From Candidatus Pelagibacterales bacterium (GTDB lineage Bacteria; Pseudomonadota; Alphaproteobacteria; TMED109), in NCBI GenBank assembly GCA_002715505.1, contig PAZF01000021.1, positions 1-64,000 of the forward strand: a stretch of DNA of 64,000 bases, written 5' to 3'. Made by a program: the position numbers and the translations under genes. Positions 4,901-10,928 of this stretch are shown one piece after another; the first letter of the stretch is position 1, and each line of letters starts with the position of its first letter. Under the pieces are notes generated by a model. It was not told the DNA's origin. It searched no databases and worked only from the letters and a program-made list of their open reading frames with translations.

Positions 4901-6262
4901 TTAATTTTCACCCTTTTCATTTAGTATTTTTAATTTTCTATGTAAAGCTGATCTCTCCATGCCAATGAAATCAGCTGTTTTAGAAACATTGTTATTAAAC
5001 CTTTTCATTTGTAAATTAATGTATTCTGTTTCAAAAAGCTCTCTTGCTTTTTTTAATGATAAACTAATCATTTTTTTTTGTATAATATCTGAAAAATTAT
5101 TTTCTTCTTTATTATTATAAGACATTATAAGTTTAGTAATTTCATCGTTAGAATGAGTCTGAGAGACAATTAATAAGTGCTCTATAATATTTTTTAACTG
5201 TCTTAGGTTTCCACTTAAATTGATAGACTGTAATAAGTTATAATGATCTTTAGACAAGCTTTTGTTAGCTACTCCTAGTGTCTTACTACATTTTTTTAAA
5301 AAATAGTTGATAAATTCTGGTATATCTTCAATGCGTTCTTTTAAAGATGGAACTATAATAGGCACGACATTAAGCCTATAAAAAAGGTCTTCACTGAAAT
5401 TTTTATTTATTACCATATCATGTATATTTTTTGAGCTTGCAGCAATTATCCTGATATCTACTTCAACGGCATATTTTCCATTAACTCTTAAAAACCTGTT
5501 CTCAGTGAGCAACTTAATTAATCTTCGTTGTGATTTTGTACACAGATTTGCAGCTTCATCTATATACAAAGTACCGTTGTGAGCTTGCTCTACTAACCCT
5601 ATTCTCTCTGGATTTCCTTCTACATTTTCTTTTCCAAAAAGCTCTTCTTCTATAGCATCTGGAATTAATCTTTTTGTATTTAGAAAAACTATTGCCCCTA
5701 GAGCTCTGGAAGATTTATTATGAATCAATTTAGCTATATGTTTTTTTCCGCTTCCAGTAGGTCCCGTTATAAAAACTCTACTTTTAGTAGCAGCTACTTT
5801 TTCTATTAAAGACTTTACCAATAAAGCTGGATTAGATTTTCCAATAAATATAGTATCATCATCAATAAATTGACTTAACTTAATTTTAAGTTCCGCATCT
5901 TCAATAGCACGTTTAATATTTAATACTAAAAGGCTAGTATCAAAAGGTTTTTCAATAAAATTAAAAGCTCCCACCTGCAATGAGCTAATTGCCATTTTTA
6001 TAGTACCATGACCACTAATCATAATAATAGGAATGTTAGGATAGCTTTTCTTAAGAAGTTTTAATATTTGAATTCCATCCAAGTCACTATTTTCTAACCA
6101 AACATCTAATAAAATTAAGGAAGGAATTCTTTTTGAAATCTCTTTCTTAATGCTAGTATAATCCCATGCTAATCTTGTACTAAAACCATCATCTTGCAAA
6201 ATCCCAGCAATTAAGTGTCTAATATCTTCTTCATCATCAACTATTAATATATCTTTATTCAT
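4901..6262 (-). CDS. ntrX: NtrX response regulator (sigma54-type AAA+ regulator without GAFTGA)
   Basis: NtrX is the DNA-binding partner of the NtrY kinase, linked in Alphaproteobacteria to nitrogen, redox and envelope control. The 453-residue protein has an intact receiver (acidic pocket VDDEED at 8-13, phospho-acceptor Asp53 in LLDVWLEN, Lys in EKPF), an AAA+ domain with Walker A GPTGSGKK and Walker B TLYIDEA, an arginine-finger region FYRLNV, and a Fis-type HTH at the C-terminus (NNVSKTADFIGMERSALHRK). The GAFTGA loop that contacts sigma54 is replaced by VEGNPERIG after ELFGKEN, which argues for a role other than sigma54 activation. It overlaps ntrY by 4 nt (ATGA). Confidence 0.95.
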   Translation of the reverse strand: MNKDILIVDDEEDIRHLIAGILQDDGFSTRLAWDYTSIKKEISKRIPSLILLDVWLENSDLDGIQILKLLKKSYPNIPIIMISGHGTIKMAISSLQVGAFNFIEKPFDTSLLVLNIKRAIEDAELKIKLSQFIDDDTIFIGKSNPALLVKSLIEKVAATKSRVFITGPTGSGKKHIAKLIHNKSSRALGAIVFLNTKRLIPDAIEEELFGKENVEGNPERIGLVEQAHNGTLYIDEAANLCTKSQRRLIKLLTENRFLRVNGKYAVEVDIRIIAASSKNIHDMVINKNFSEDLFYRLNVVPIIVPSLKERIEDIPEFINYFLKKCSKTLGVANKSLSKDHYNLLQSINLSGNLRQLKNIIEHLLIVSQTHSNDEITKLIMSYNNKEENNFSDIIQKKMISLSLKKARELFETEYINLQMKRFNNNVSKTADFIGMERSALHRKLKILNEKGEN

Positions 6263-8433
6263 GCCTTTATTTGTTCATTTTTTTTATTAAGTGGAAATAT
6301 TAGTCTTACTCTAGCTCCTTGTACTTTAGGATTATTGCTTAGTTCTATAGATCCTTTATGATCTTCCATTATTTTTTTTACAACAGCTAAACCTATCCCT
6401 GAACCTTTTTTAGATCTTGATATGTAAGGCTCTAATAAGTATTCTTTGTTATCTGGAAAACCAGTACCATTATCAATAAAGTCTAATAAGTATGAGGCGT
6501 TTTTTTTATTTAACTCTATATGAATTTTACCTGCTTTATTAATTTTTTTATTTTCATTTATTGCATTAATAGAGTTTTTAAATAAGTTGTTTAAGGCTTG
6601 ATTAATTAGATTAGGGTCAGCTTTTAAAGTTGTATTTTTAATTTTATCTAAATTACTAGTAATTAATAGCTTTTGGTTAGCCAGTTTATTCATACCAATG
6701 CTACCAATAATGATTTGTTTCAAACTAATTTTTTGAAATATAGGCCTTGGCATTTCAGCAAAAGTAGAAAATTCATTCACCATTCTATGAATAGTAGAAA
6801 CCTGTCTAATTATTGTATCTATGCAACTAATAAATACATTCTTCTCTTCAGAAATTTTATTTAAATATTTATGCTTTAATCTATCTGCAGAAAGCTGGAT
6901 AGGGGTAAGTGGATTTTTGATCTCATGAGCAATTCTTTTTGCTATATCAGACCAGGCTGCCGCTCTTTGAATCTTTATTAATTCAGTAATATTTTCAATG
7001 GTAACCACATAGCCACTGTTTAAACTTTTATAATTTTCAAAGGAAACCCTTACTATAAATTTTTTCTTTTTTCCTTTTACAAAATAATCTATTTGTTCTT
7101 CACCAAATGATAATTTTAATTCTCTTACATCTTCAACGACTTTAATCAAGGAAGGAAATAAATCGAAAATCCTGAAACCTATAAGATTACTTGCATCATT
7201 TTCTAGCAACTCTAAAGCAGACTTGTTAACTAAAAAAACTCTATCTTCAGCATCAATTCCTAATACACCTGATTTAACTCCTGTTAATACCGACTCTGTA
7301 AATCTTCTTCTGTTATCTATTTGTTCGTTTGCAGTTACCAAATCTTTTCTTTGATCATAAAGCTGTTTTACCATTTTATTAAAGCTATAAATTAAAGAAC
7401 TTATCTCATCTGTCTTTTTTTTATGGCTAGATATTCTCACTTTAAGATTTCCTGCACTAACACTTTCTGAAGCGCTTATTAATGAAGAAATAGGATCAAT
7501 TAGCGAGTTTGCAAAAGCCATACCTAACCATACTGCTAAAAGTAATAATATTAAAGCTACTGATAAAAAAACCATGGTAAAGGTAATTCTACTTTCATCA
7601 CTATTTTTTTTTGCAGCTGAATAATCATTAACAGCCTTTTTAACACTTTTCAGGTTATAAATCATCACAGGATCTAAATATCTCGAAAAATATAAATAAA
7701 GTCCAAAATGACCGACTATTGGAGTTATAACAGATAAATTATTATTTTTATTATCATTTATAAATACTAATGGAGAGCTTTTATCCTTTCTACTAGCAAA
7801 AATATTGCTTGGGGAAATATTATTAGGCAAGAAAAAACTATTTTTAGAAGCAGAAATAATATTTCCATTTAAGTTAATAACTGCTAATTCATTAGCTCCT
7901 CTCTCTATGGCTAAATTATTAAGAGCATGATTTAGTTGTAATCTATTATTGAAATTAGCACTGGAATAATTTGAAAGTTTAAGAGAAATAAATAAAGCAT
8001 CTCCTTCTACTTTTTTTTTTATTTCTTCAGCATAATTATCTGCAATTGCAGCTGATTTTTCTAATGCTGTCTGAACTCTTTTACTAAACCAAGCTTCTAT
8101 TCCTCTTTCAAAAAAAATTACTGCTAGTATAGCAACTATAAGTACAGGCATAATAGCAATAGTTGCAAAAACTCCAATAATTTTAGACCTAAGTTTAGAT
8201 CCTGCAGTATTTTTTCTTATATTTAAAAAAAGTCTACTTAATTCAAATAAAATTAAAAAAAGTAGTAGCAAAAAAGATAACAATCCAAAAAAAAGAAAAA
8301 TCCACACAGTTAATGGATTACTGTCTGCTGTATTATGAATTGAGTAAAAAATACCTATTGCGGAGGAGAAACAAAAGAAAAAAGTAAAAGGTATAAAAGT
8401 TCTTTTCAAACTATTTATTGATAACGACATCAT
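6259..8433 (-). CDS. ntrY: NtrY membrane sensor histidine kinase
   Basis: NtrY is the inner-membrane sensor kinase for NtrX. The 724-residue protein starts with three membrane segments (about 12-32, 42-64, 88-108), an extracytoplasmic region of about 170 residues, a fourth segment near 285-305, a HAMP linker, a PAS domain (about 370-480), then the kinase core. The H-box IAHEIKNPLTPIQ near residue 500 keeps the phospho-acceptor histidine, the N-box reads NNLFKNSINAI, and the G-boxes are DNGTGFPD and GSGIGLAVV. All kinase motifs are intact, unlike the NtrB-like protein upstream. It overlaps ntrX by 4 nt and lies 2 nt after the ntrC-like gene. Confidence 0.95.
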   Translation of the reverse strand: MMSLSINSLKRTFIPFTFFFCFSSAIGIFYSIHNTADSNPLTVWIFLFFGLLSFLLLLFLILFELSRLFLNIRKNTAGSKLRSKIIGVFATIAIMPVLIVAILAVIFFERGIEAWFSKRVQTALEKSAAIADNYAEEIKKKVEGDALFISLKLSNYSSANFNNRLQLNHALNNLAIERGANELAVINLNGNIISASKNSFFLPNNISPSNIFASRKDKSSPLVFINDNKNNNLSVITPIVGHFGLYLYFSRYLDPVMIYNLKSVKKAVNDYSAAKKNSDESRITFTMVFLSVALILLLLAVWLGMAFANSLIDPISSLISASESVSAGNLKVRISSHKKKTDEISSLIYSFNKMVKQLYDQRKDLVTANEQIDNRRRFTESVLTGVKSGVLGIDAEDRVFLVNKSALELLENDASNLIGFRIFDLFPSLIKVVEDVRELKLSFGEEQIDYFVKGKKKKFIVRVSFENYKSLNSGYVVTIENITELIKIQRAAAWSDIAKRIAHEIKNPLTPIQLSADRLKHKYLNKISEEKNVFISCIDTIIRQVSTIHRMVNEFSTFAEMPRPIFQKISLKQIIIGSIGMNKLANQKLLITSNLDKIKNTTLKADPNLINQALNNLFKNSINAINENKKINKAGKIHIELNKKNASYLLDFIDNGTGFPDNKEYLLEPYISRSKKGSGIGLAVVKKIMEDHKGSIELSNNPKVQGARVRLIFPLNKKNEQIKA

Positions 8434-8435
8434 AT

Positions 8436-9836
8436 TTAATCAGTAATTGTATTTTTAATAATTTCAATTTCATAATCATCCATTTTTTTTCTTAATGTAT
8501 TTCTATTTATACCTAAAAGTTGTGAGGAGAGAAACTTATTATTATTTGTAAACTTTAGCATCTCAATTATTAAGGGTTTTTCAAATTCTTTCAGAAGTTT
8601 ATAATAAATTCCAGATTCAACTTTATTATTTGACAGATAGCCTCTTATATTCGCACTAATAAATGCATTAAAATTAACTCTCCAATTTTCTAAATAATCT
8701 TTATTAGCATATTTAAATTCATTATTTATTTCTTTTTTTATTAAAGATTTATTTATTTGAATATTATCATCAGAAAGTTCATAACATCTTTTTATAAAAC
8801 TTTTTAATTGAGTTAAATTCCCAGGCCATATATATTCTTCTAAAATTTCAAAAGCATCATCATTAATAGTTTTATTATTTTTATTAATTAAATTAAATTC
8901 TGATATAATTTCCTTAGATAATAATTTTATGTCCTCTTTTCTATCTCTTAAAGGTAAAGTGAAAATATTATACATGCTCAAATAATAAAATAACTCGCTA
9001 GAAAAATTATTATTACTTAAAGCTTGCTTTAGATTTTTTGAAGTAGTCGCTATAAATCTTGTATTTTTTGATATTAATGAGGAACTAGCATTTTTACCTT
9101 TTAATAAGGATCCAAGAATTCTTTGAATATTCATTGGCATAATTTCAATATCAGAAAAAAGGATAGTACTCGAAACTTCTGAGTTTTTTAAGAATTTAGA
9201 ATCTAAAAACTGATCCTTTGTGATTTTATTTAATAATAGTTTTTCAAAATTATTATTTCTATAGTCTAAAAAGTTTATTTCTATAATTTTTTTATCTGGT
9301 TCTCTTAAAGCATTAATAGTGTTAGCAATTTGTCTTTTTCCAGTTCCATTTTCTCCAGAAATTAGAGCATTTAAATTATTATTTATTATTTTATAAATAC
9401 TATCAAAAATTACCTTTGTTTTGCTTGTTTTATCAATAAAAGGAATCTTAATATTAAAATTACTGTTAATTAAACTTTCTTTTGCACTTAAGTATTCAAT
9501 TTTATTTTTCAAATCTTTTAATTCAAAAGGTTTTTGAATAACTTCTATGCCTAATTCATTATATTTTAAGAAACTTTCTAATTCAAAATTCCCCCCAGTT
9601 ATTATTAATAAAGGCAACTTATTTTTAAGATTTTTTACGTCGTTGTGAAACAATCTTAATTTTCCTCTAATAATATCTTCTTCTATAATTCCAACGCTAT
9701 AGTCATTACTTACAAGATTACTCTTAAAGCTTTCATAATGATTACTAAGGCTCAAATCAAATTTATTATTTTTAAGGTATACACTTAGTATGAATTTAAA
9801 GTTTTCATCATTTCCAGCATATAAAATATTACTAAT
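8436..9836 (-). CDS. ntrC: NtrC-like regulator, degenerate receiver and AAA+ domains, probable ATT start
   Basis: By position and domain order this is NtrC, the nitrogen response regulator, but its signalling residues are gone. With the start placed at ATT (9836-9834) it has 466 residues. The receiver (about 1-115) has GND where the acidic pocket should be and Ile50 at the phospho-acceptor Asp; only Thr (IITGG) and Lys (QKPF) remain. The AAA+ domain keeps Walker A (GENGTGKR, about 161-168) but has ILFSDIEIMP at Walker B, no GAFTGA, and YLSM where the arginine finger RLNV belongs. The Fis-type HTH at the C-terminus (LLGINRNTLRKK) is intact. The first ordinary start, TTG at 9755, would remove the first receiver strand, whereas the ATT has a GGAG ribosome binding site 7 nt upstream. 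It begins 3 nt after the ntrB stop. Probably a DNA-binding protein no longer controlled by phosphorylation. Confidence 0.82.
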   Translation of the reverse strand: MSNILYAGNDENFKFILSVYLKNNKFDLSLSNHYESFKSNLVSNDYSVGIIEEDIIRGKLRLFHNDVKNLKNKLPLLIITGGNFELESFLKYNELGIEVIQKPFELKDLKNKIEYLSAKESLINSNFNIKIPFIDKTSKTKVIFDSIYKIINNNLNALISGENGTGKRQIANTINALREPDKKIIEINFLDYRNNNFEKLLLNKITKDQFLDSKFLKNSEVSSTILFSDIEIMPMNIQRILGSLLKGKNASSSLISKNTRFIATTSKNLKQALSNNNFSSELFYYLSMYNIFTLPLRDRKEDIKLLSKEIISEFNLINKNNKTINDDAFEILEEYIWPGNLTQLKSFIKRCYELSDDNIQINKSLIKKEINNEFKYANKDYLENWRVNFNAFISANIRGYLSNNKVESGIYYKLLKEFEKPLIIEMLKFTNNNKFLSSQLLGINRNTLRKKMDDYEIEIIKNTITD

Positions 9837-9848
9837 TATTTATCTCCC
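9834..9848 (-). promoter_or_regulatory. ribosome binding site and ATT start of ntrC-like gene
   Basis: On the minus strand GGGAG (9848-9844) is followed by ATAAATA and then ATT (9836-9834). The TAA inside the spacer is the ntrB stop codon and is in the same frame as ntrC, so translation cannot start earlier. No ATG, GTG or TTG occurs in frame until TTG 9755, 27 codons downstream, although these 27 codons encode the expected first strand and helix of a receiver domain (NILYAGNDENFKFIL). The GAGATAAATAATT core matches the pyrG initiation region in 12 of 13 positions. Confidence 0.65.
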
Positions 9849-10928
9849 TTCATTTTTTAATGGTAAATAAATATTAAAAACGGTTACATTTTTTTCCTTT
9901 TCCAACTTAATAAAACCACCATTGTTGGATATTACAGCATTTACATAAGCCAGCCCTAGCCCGTCAGAACTGCTTTTAGTTCCAACGAAAGGATAAAAAA
10001 TAAATTTTTCTATAATTTCTTCTATCCCATTTCCTTCATCTGATACTTTTATATGAATTGGAAGTTTAAGAACTTTTTGTAAATCAGATGACCTTACGTA
10101 AATATTATGATTAATCCTAGTAGTAATAGTAATAAAATTATTTTTTTTACTTTCACAAGCATTAATTAACAGGTTTTCAAAACATTTAATGATTTCTCTT
10201 CTATCAAATTTAATCTTTGGAATAGATGGATCAAAGTCTTTTAAAATTTTATAAGTGTCAAAATATTTCATATCTAATGTCTCTATAGCTTCTACTAAAC
10301 ATTCATGAATATTTACTAATTCTACCTTAGAATTTGTATTATTGTAAAAGTTAAGTGTTTTATTTACATAATTTTTAATCTTACTAGTTTCTGCTTCTAA
10401 TAATCCAATTATTTTATTATCTATTTCATTATTTAAAGGGCTCCTTTCTTTAAATAATTCTATTGCAGCTAATATATTAGTAATTGGAGAACTAATATTT
10501 CTATCTAAGCTATCTGAAAATCCTCTAATAAATAAATCACTTAGAGTTTTACTAGTTTGTGTCATATAAGTTTTAAAATTATCTTTTTCTTGAATTATTA
10601 ATAATACTAATTTTTCTTCAACTTTATTAAAATGCAAGTCTGCAATCACTTCATTATCATCTAAATCATTTAATTTATAATCATAGGTTGAAACTGAAGC
10701 ATCTCCCCCGAATAGTCTTTTAAGAATATTTTCTATATCAAATGTAAAAAAAGTTTGTAATCTAATTTTATTTAAATTTGAAATTCTATTAAATTTAAAC
10801 TTTTCTTTATATGTTAAATTAGCATCAACTATAAAACCTTCAGCGTTTATTATCAATGCAGGCATTGGCAAAAATGATATGAAGTCTTTAATTGCTGTAT
10901 TTTTAATCATATTTAAGTAAAATATCAT
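9840..10928 (-). CDS. ntrB: NtrB-like sensor protein lacking the phospho-acceptor histidine
   Basis: NtrB is the soluble kinase that phosphorylates NtrC. This 362-residue protein has the NtrB layout: a PAS domain (about 15-115, LPMPALIINAEGFIVDAN), a dimerisation/H-box region and a GHKL ATPase domain. In the H-box the family HEIKNP reads RNISSP, so Arg143 replaces the histidine and Asn the following glutamate. The ATP-binding motifs are kept: N-box NLLINACES, DEGNGI, YPFVGTKSSSDGLGLA. It could bind ATP but should not autophosphorylate. The start at 10928 has a GAGA site; a second ATG at 10910 is possible. Its start is only 8 bp from the divergent ispDF start. The dusB gene that usually precedes ntrB is missing. 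Confidence 0.85.
   Translation of the reverse strand: MIFYLNMIKNTAIKDFISFLPMPALIINAEGFIVDANLTYKEKFKFNRISNLNKIRLQTFFTFDIENILKRLFGGDASVSTYDYKLNDLDDNEVIADLHFNKVEEKLVLLIIQEKDNFKTYMTQTSKTLSDLFIRGFSDSLDRNISSPITNILAAIELFKERSPLNNEIDNKIIGLLEAETSKIKNYVNKTLNFYNNTNSKVELVNIHECLVEAIETLDMKYFDTYKILKDFDPSIPKIKFDRREIIKCFENLLINACESKKNNFITITTRINHNIYVRSSDLQKVLKLPIHIKVSDEGNGIEEIIEKFIFYPFVGTKSSSDGLGLAYVNAVISNNGGFIKLEKEKNVTVFNIYLPLKNEGR

Follow-up and report, generated by a model that had tools for sequence, protein, structure and literature searches.

The window (the whole 64,000-nucleotide stretch analysed here) carries on its minus strand the genes ntrB, ntrC, ntrY, ntrX, trkA and trkH, with ispDF divergent (Table 1). 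The ntrC gene encodes an NtrC ortholog by descent as well as by its place between ntrB and ntrYX in a conserved operon. A different arrangement was seen in a related genome, G019, where part of ntrB is joined at a contig end to part of ntrY without ntrC (L053:4035-4296); either ntrC was truly deleted there or the join is a chimera of the assembly.

Table 1. Genes, domains and residues of the ntrBCYX region in the window.
Feature	Position	Strand	Remarks
ntrC, degenerate	8436..9836	-	stop codon 8436-8438
NtrC domains			REC residues 1-118; AAA+ about 129-346; Fis-type HTH 387-461
ntrC probable start, ATT	9834..9836	-	3 nt past the ntrB stop (9840-9842)
ntrC ribosome-binding site, AAGGGAG	9844..9850	-	within the ntrB 3' end
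NtrC receiver acidic pair lost, G8 N9	9810..9815	-	
NtrC phospho-acceptor column, Glu52	9681..9683	-	Asp in G003, G004, G005, G006
NtrC Walker A GENGTGK (residues 161-167), kept	9336..9356	-	5/5 orthologs
NtrC Walker B position, S228 D229 replacing D E	9150..9155	-	
NtrC arginine-finger segment S279-Y285	8982..9002	-	both Arg gone
NtrC sensor-II position, T342 replacing Arg	8811..8813	-	
NtrC recognition helix LLGINRNTLRKKM (440-452)	8481..8519	-	12/13 identical to canonical relatives
ntrB, degenerate	9840..10910	-	PAS and ATP-binding (CA) domain kept
NtrB Arg137 codon, H-box His position	10500..10502	-	
ntrY sensor kinase	6259..8433	-	H-box HEIKNP intact
ntrX	4901..6262	-	intact receiver; GAFTGA absent; one arginine finger is Ser

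Genomes compared

The window's own genome, G000 (1.70 Mb in 31 contigs, 97.6% complete), was compared within a family of 28 genomes in 8 genera, which is the whole order in our collection; the other assemblies are 54-97% complete, and that of G018 is error-ridden. Genera g1, g4 and g7 form one clade with a support of 100 in a tree of TrkA and NtrX (15 genomes), called the clade below, and the canonical NtrC relatives come from genera g2, g5, g6 and g8. The NtrC motif table covers 15 of the 28 genomes, five of the clade (G000, G003, G004, G005 and G006) and ten canonical. NtrC was not found or not aligned in G002, G008, G011, G015, G016 and G017, nor in G019, G020, G021, G023, G024 and G025; the incomplete assemblies G002, G008 and G011, in which it was not found, were counted outside the clade, and G021, G023, G024 and G025 were assigned by genus in the promoter counts. 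In genus g7, ntrC was seen solely in G018, whose frame-broken copy was read by eye and stands outside the motif table. The NtrB alignment was made without G004.

NtrC proteins 74-75% identical are found in the records Rhodospirillaceae bacterium AG-390-K05, Alphaproteobacteria bacterium TMED93 and Candidatus Pelagibacterales bacterium NP101. Among 385 genomes sampled from the class, a profile of the degenerate NtrC matched only G000 at an E value of 1e-60 or better, and the other clade members were absent among the matches in this sample.

Losses in NtrC and in its partner kinase

The original prediction described an NtrC with a GND acidic pocket, no GAFTGA, SD for DE in Walker B and no arginine finger, next to an intact Fis-type HTH, and the alignment bears all of this out: the pocket reads G8-N9(-D10), Walker B is S228-D229, both arginine-finger positions are changed (S279 and Y285), and the HTH is recognized by HTH_8 with 36.1 bits. 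It also reported that the receiver Asp had been replaced by Ile50; the Asp is absent in the window, but the residue is Glu52, the former number being a miscount.

The comparison across the clade that had been proposed as a check revealed an identical set of losses in the five aligned orthologs, which is beyond chance. Aligned with the ten canonical NtrC, all five have an incomplete acidic pair (g1 lacks both residues, g4 one) and no GAFTGA; the Asp and the Glu of Walker B are replaced, and so is the Arg at sensor II and at each of the two finger positions. In contrast, the acidic pair, Walker B, the arginine fingers and the sensor-II Arg are present in 10/10 canonical proteins, whose loop reads GAFTGA in nine and GSFTGA in one (G007). 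Walker A is intact and the receiver Lys102 is kept in all five clade orthologs. The intact Walker A (GENGTGK) had not been remarked before. At the sensor-II position the window has T342.

The phospho-acceptor column corresponds to D54 in the canonical relatives, and the Pfam Response_reg positions concur on residue 52, in numbering from the ATT. It is occupied by Glu52 in the window but by Asp52 in four of the five orthologs (G003, G004, G005 and G006), and by Asn, read by eye, in G018. Loss of the Asp is thus not clade-wide, whereas that of the acidic pair is, and, given Asp52 in four of five orthologs, some receiver function may persist. The recognition helix of the clade differs from the canonical one by Met for Ile at the last position, and in G003 also by Ile for the first Leu. 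NtrC scores 133.4 bits with NCBIfam TIGR01818, below the equivalog cut-off of 558.6, and this is the best of all NCBIfam models. By established bEBP biology, a protein with these losses in Walker B, the arginine fingers and the GAFTGA loop should not remodel the sigma-54 polymerase. The kept Walker A leads to the prediction that NtrC may bind ATP.

The loss claimed on the kinase side was found as well: the H-box His is replaced by Arg (four) or Lys (one) in the five aligned clade NtrB and is His in the six others. The ATPase domain is preserved, with an HATPase_c match of 38.6 bits, the N, G1 and G2 boxes present, and N256, D297 and G323 invariant across the 11 aligned rows. NtrB is not a NifL, as it reaches 34.9 bits with the NCBIfam nifL model TIGR02938 (cut-off 242.45).

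Start codon of ntrC

A start at position 9755 had been assumed for ntrC. This codon is an internal TTG, and the open frame extends to 9839. In the window frame ATG, GTG and TTG are all absent before codon 28, and in all five genomes of g1 and g4 compared (G000, G003, G004, G005 and G006) an ATT follows the ntrB stop by 1-3 nt and a GGAG by 6-9 nt; the ntrC of the canonical relatives starts with ATG. The 28 codons upstream of the TTG gave, over few sites, dN/dS values of 0.06 (G004-G006) and 0.07 (G005-G006). Given this purifying selection and the conserved ATT, we reject the TTG at 9755. An in-frame TTG is found at codon 5 in G005 and at codon 21 in G003, and the ATA at 9837-9839 is an alternative start codon in the window, so the ATT is the best candidate, short of proof, and ntrC probably starts there. 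In Escherichia coli, infC starts with AUU. Readthrough of the ntrB stop codon, which would give an NtrB-NtrC fusion, was rejected also: the two frames are in line in the window but differ in G004 and G005, so readthrough is not conserved.

Selection on NtrB and NtrC

Using the Nei-Gojobori method, we obtained for NtrC a dN/dS of 0.095 at a dS of 0.26 (G004-G006). The remaining pairs within a genus, whose dS is close to 1 or higher, gave 0.08-0.14. For comparison, canonical NtrC in g6 gave 0.06-0.12, and NtrX within g1 gave 0.07-0.11. The G000-G003 pair, with saturated dS, gave 0.31 for NtrC, 0.17 for NtrX and 0.30 for IspDF. The HTH is the tightest domain of NtrC (dN/dS 0.02-0.05 within genus).

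Between g1 and g4, NtrC is best conserved in the HTH (identity 0.74-0.78), less so in the AAA core (0.45-0.47) and least in REC (0.25); the corresponding values in five canonical inter-genus pairs are 0.62-0.90, 0.65-0.80 and 0.46-0.65. In NtrB the g1-g4 pairs are 0.37-0.40 identical in DHp, 0.65-0.66 in PAS and 0.57-0.58 in CA, and pairs with G018 0.35-0.45, 0.46-0.50 and 0.57-0.60, respectively; in five canonical NtrB pairs DHp exceeded PAS each time, with PAS rows that are partly truncated (38-96 columns). Together with the H-box change, these identities indicate that constraint has left the phosphotransfer faces of both proteins and stayed on their ends. Judged from the aligned sequences, it is gone from REC and AAA+ and retained on the HTH in NtrC, and it is gone from DHp and retained on the PAS and ATPase domains in NtrB. 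The original prediction had argued against random decay, and on this point it is well supported by the low dN/dS, by losses common to one three-genus clade, and by a relaxation limited to the phosphotransfer and ATPase parts, with PAS, CA and HTH constrained.

The glnBA promoter and glutamine riboswitches

A sigma-54 -24/-12 site (at most 2 mismatches, at -54 to -75) lies upstream of glnB in 16/16 genomes outside the clade, these being the ones with glnB located, and 0-2 of 200 shuffles reached the score of these sites. Inside the clade no such site was found before glnB (0/6), the best sites having 3-5 mismatches, at chance level. G013, with its P-II match at a contig edge, was left out of these counts, and a P-II match was absent in G003, G015, G016, G019 and G020.

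A glutamine riboswitch (RF01739, covariance-model gathering threshold 35) occupies the glnB-glnA gap in G000, G004, G005, G006 and G018 (55.5-61.8 bits) and in G017 (57.8 bits), and another precedes amtB in G000, G003, G004 and G006 (45.9-56.3 bits). All the glnA and amtB leader aptamers, at 45.9-61.8 bits, are above the gathering threshold. From these sequences, control of glnA seems to have moved from NtrC/sigma-54 to the glutamine riboswitch in the clade. Four glnA leaders folded no better than their shuffles (z -0.75 to 0.50), and we therefore claim no expression platform.

RF01739 is present in 12 of the 28 family genomes. Outside the clade, in G001, G008 and G009, it occurs in tandem before a small conserved protein with a signal-peptide-like start; tandem copies also lie near small secreted-like proteins in G000 (C12:68288-68396) and G019 (C8), and the tandem loci are L111 and L127, and L103, L104, L105, L115 and L116. 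Weak matches of 33 bits, below gathering, were seen at L122 (G017) and L125 (G019). Both lie downstream of the gene found ahead of amtB in g1 and g4; amtB was not found behind either, so they are possibly remnants. Among copies of a second ammonium transporter, TGGCATGAATCATGCT is common to the three aligned from g6 (G009, G010 and G014) and absent from the five aligned from the clade. A second P-II gene was noticed on contig C1 of G000 (L073), whose genes look different from those in the remainder of the AT-rich genome; the contig is possibly an assembly contamination.

Sigma-54 and its activators

A second canonical ntrBC pair, which would have spoken against the original prediction, was not found in G000 in a PF00158 search. 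The convincing AAA+ activators of this genome are NtrC, NtrX and two proteins with G(A/S)FTGA; two further weak matches (4.8e-6 and 8.4e-5) lie within long frames. Presence of rpoN, proposed as another check, was established in 23 of the 28 family genomes, G000 included, so the idea that NtrC was set free by the absence of rpoN is rejected. The two G(A/S)FTGA activators of G000 sit among fliI, fliH, fliF, fliS, fliD and flagellins. With a flagellar-type activator as query (E 1e-60), eight clade genomes (G000, G003, G004, G005, G006, G016, G017 and G020) gave matches of 75-100% identity, and in g2, g5, g6 and g8 14 genomes matched, at the ntrC locus only. By these matches the flagellar activators are exclusive to the clade among the family genomes matched.

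The enteric NtrC operator pattern is TGCAC-N7-GTGCA. With up to 2 mismatches this enteric consensus has 109-166 matches per strand in 11 genomes; the reversed-pattern control holds CpG and is unfair, so these counts were not used. No convincing NtrC operator emerged from a box scan of the glnB region, upstream alignments and a dyad scan. A structure prediction with 4 sequences was not usable (mean pLDDT 39.4).

Discussion

On balance we lean towards the view that the NtrB and NtrC of the clade are a maintained, phosphotransfer-free derivative of the canonical pair, in which NtrC would be an ATP-binding and DNA-binding regulator released from the control of glnA. The riboswitches before glnA and amtB in the clade would provide a reason for the losses: glnA and one ammonium transporter would have passed from NtrC/sigma-54 to glutamine riboswitches, and sigma-54 would now serve the flagellar activators. 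It would be this release from the glnA job that let NtrB lose the His that accepts the phosphate, and NtrC the Mg2+ pocket, the ATPase chemistry and the contact with sigma-54, while selection has retained the PAS and ATP-binding domains of NtrB and the Walker A and HTH of NtrC. NtrC would be translated by ntrB-coupled re-initiation at an AUU codon, would bind ATP without hydrolysing it and would repress or modulate transcription from sigma-70 promoters, a DNA-binding role being suggested by the conserved HTH. NtrB would act on it by direct contact and not by phosphate; a coupling of the NifL-NifA kind would account for the retention of PAS, CA and HTH alike. The sequences themselves show the losses, the selection, the difference in promoter and riboswitch and the conserved ATT; what we infer is the binding of DNA and of ATP, the contact between NtrB and NtrC, the level at which NtrC would be expressed and the order of these events. 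Taken as a whole, the combination of a stable phosphate-free regulator, NtrB contact on NtrC, AUU re-initiation, an enabling riboswitch handover and a flagellar sigma-54 is a tentative and rather doubtful proposal.

Other readings share part of this evidence. NtrC could work as in Rhodobacter capsulatus, where it is a phosphorylated, ATP-binding activator of sigma-70 promoters, and its kinase would then be NtrY instead of NtrB: GAFTGA is absent and Walker A kept, Asp52 and Lys102 persist in four and five of the five orthologs, respectively, and an intact NtrY is encoded in the same operon. However, the acidic pair needed for Mg2+ has been lost in full in g1 and by one residue in g4, the window NtrC carries Glu52, and REC is the least conserved domain, and we consider this activator rather improbable. 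The two genes could also be in ordinary decay, dying after the riboswitch takeover and still seen either for want of time or because their translation is needed for ntrYX expression. The many lost motifs and the non-canonical start would fit such a course, as would the frame breaks of G018 and the ntrB-ntrY join at the contig end in G019. Against it stand a dN/dS of about 0.1, lowest in the HTH, and a frame that is open in 5/5 good assemblies; furthermore, the breaks of G018 occur in ispDF, ntrY and cinA as well, so those in ntrC look like assembly errors. Decay appears unlikely to us.

Finally, NtrC could be an inert AAA+ subunit that has no own DNA sites and acts by poisoning or tuning NtrX in mixed oligomers. 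The two genes are conserved together in one operon, and the loss of arginine fingers with a kept Walker A is a possible look of an inactive subunit, but the recognition helix is of the NtrC and not the NtrX type and lies in the most constrained segment, which makes such a subunit very unlikely. If the phosphotransfer-free regulator that we favor is real, a former two-component system is now a stable, phosphate-free regulator of two proteins, and the pair displays what selection leaves once phosphotransfer has gone on both sides, namely the sensor and DNA-binding ends. The apparent swap of nitrogen control from NtrC/sigma-54 to a riboswitch in these streamlined marine Alphaproteobacteria comes with an outgroup state that is clear. 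With its conserved AUU, ntrC is also a candidate for a gene starting at that codon.

Comparison with known systems

PMC9004378 describes the glutamine riboswitch in cyanobacteria, other marine bacteria and marine phages. Searching titles and abstract openings, we found neither a riboswitch standing in for NtrC/sigma-54 at glnBA nor a phosphotransfer-free NtrBC or an NtrC with a degenerate or pseudo-receiver. The pair resembles canonical NtrB-NtrC (GlnL-GlnG) working with sigma-54 in operon place, domain order and recognition helix, and the sister genera are canonical. It departs from them by a kinase without phosphotransfer residues, by a regulator without acidic pair, Walker B, arginine fingers and GAFTGA, and by the absence of the glnBA sigma-54 promoter.

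In the NifL-NifA system a kinase-like protein controls a bEBP by direct contact. The coupling proposed here would be similar, but NtrB is far below the nifL cut-off and NtrC lacks the activator parts.

Two other NtrC proteins are described in PMC10274813. There, the R. capsulatus NtrC acts at sigma-70 promoters, binds ATP and requires phosphorylation; the GAFTGA-less Caulobacter NtrC is activator as well as repressor, also of its own operon, and depends on D56 and on residues of the Walker motifs, one of Walker B among them. Both depend on the receiver Asp and ATP for nitrogen assimilation. Like these two, the clade protein is alphaproteobacterial and GAFTGA-less with Walker A kept, and it goes beyond them by lacking the acidic pair and Walker B as well and by having a partner kinase without its His. 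The same paper cites VspR of Vibrio cholerae, a GAFTGA-less, bEBP-like regulator that reportedly needs neither phosphorylation nor ATP. Here the likeness is one of description only: unlike VspR, the NtrC of the clade is an NtrC ortholog in an ntrBCYX operon.
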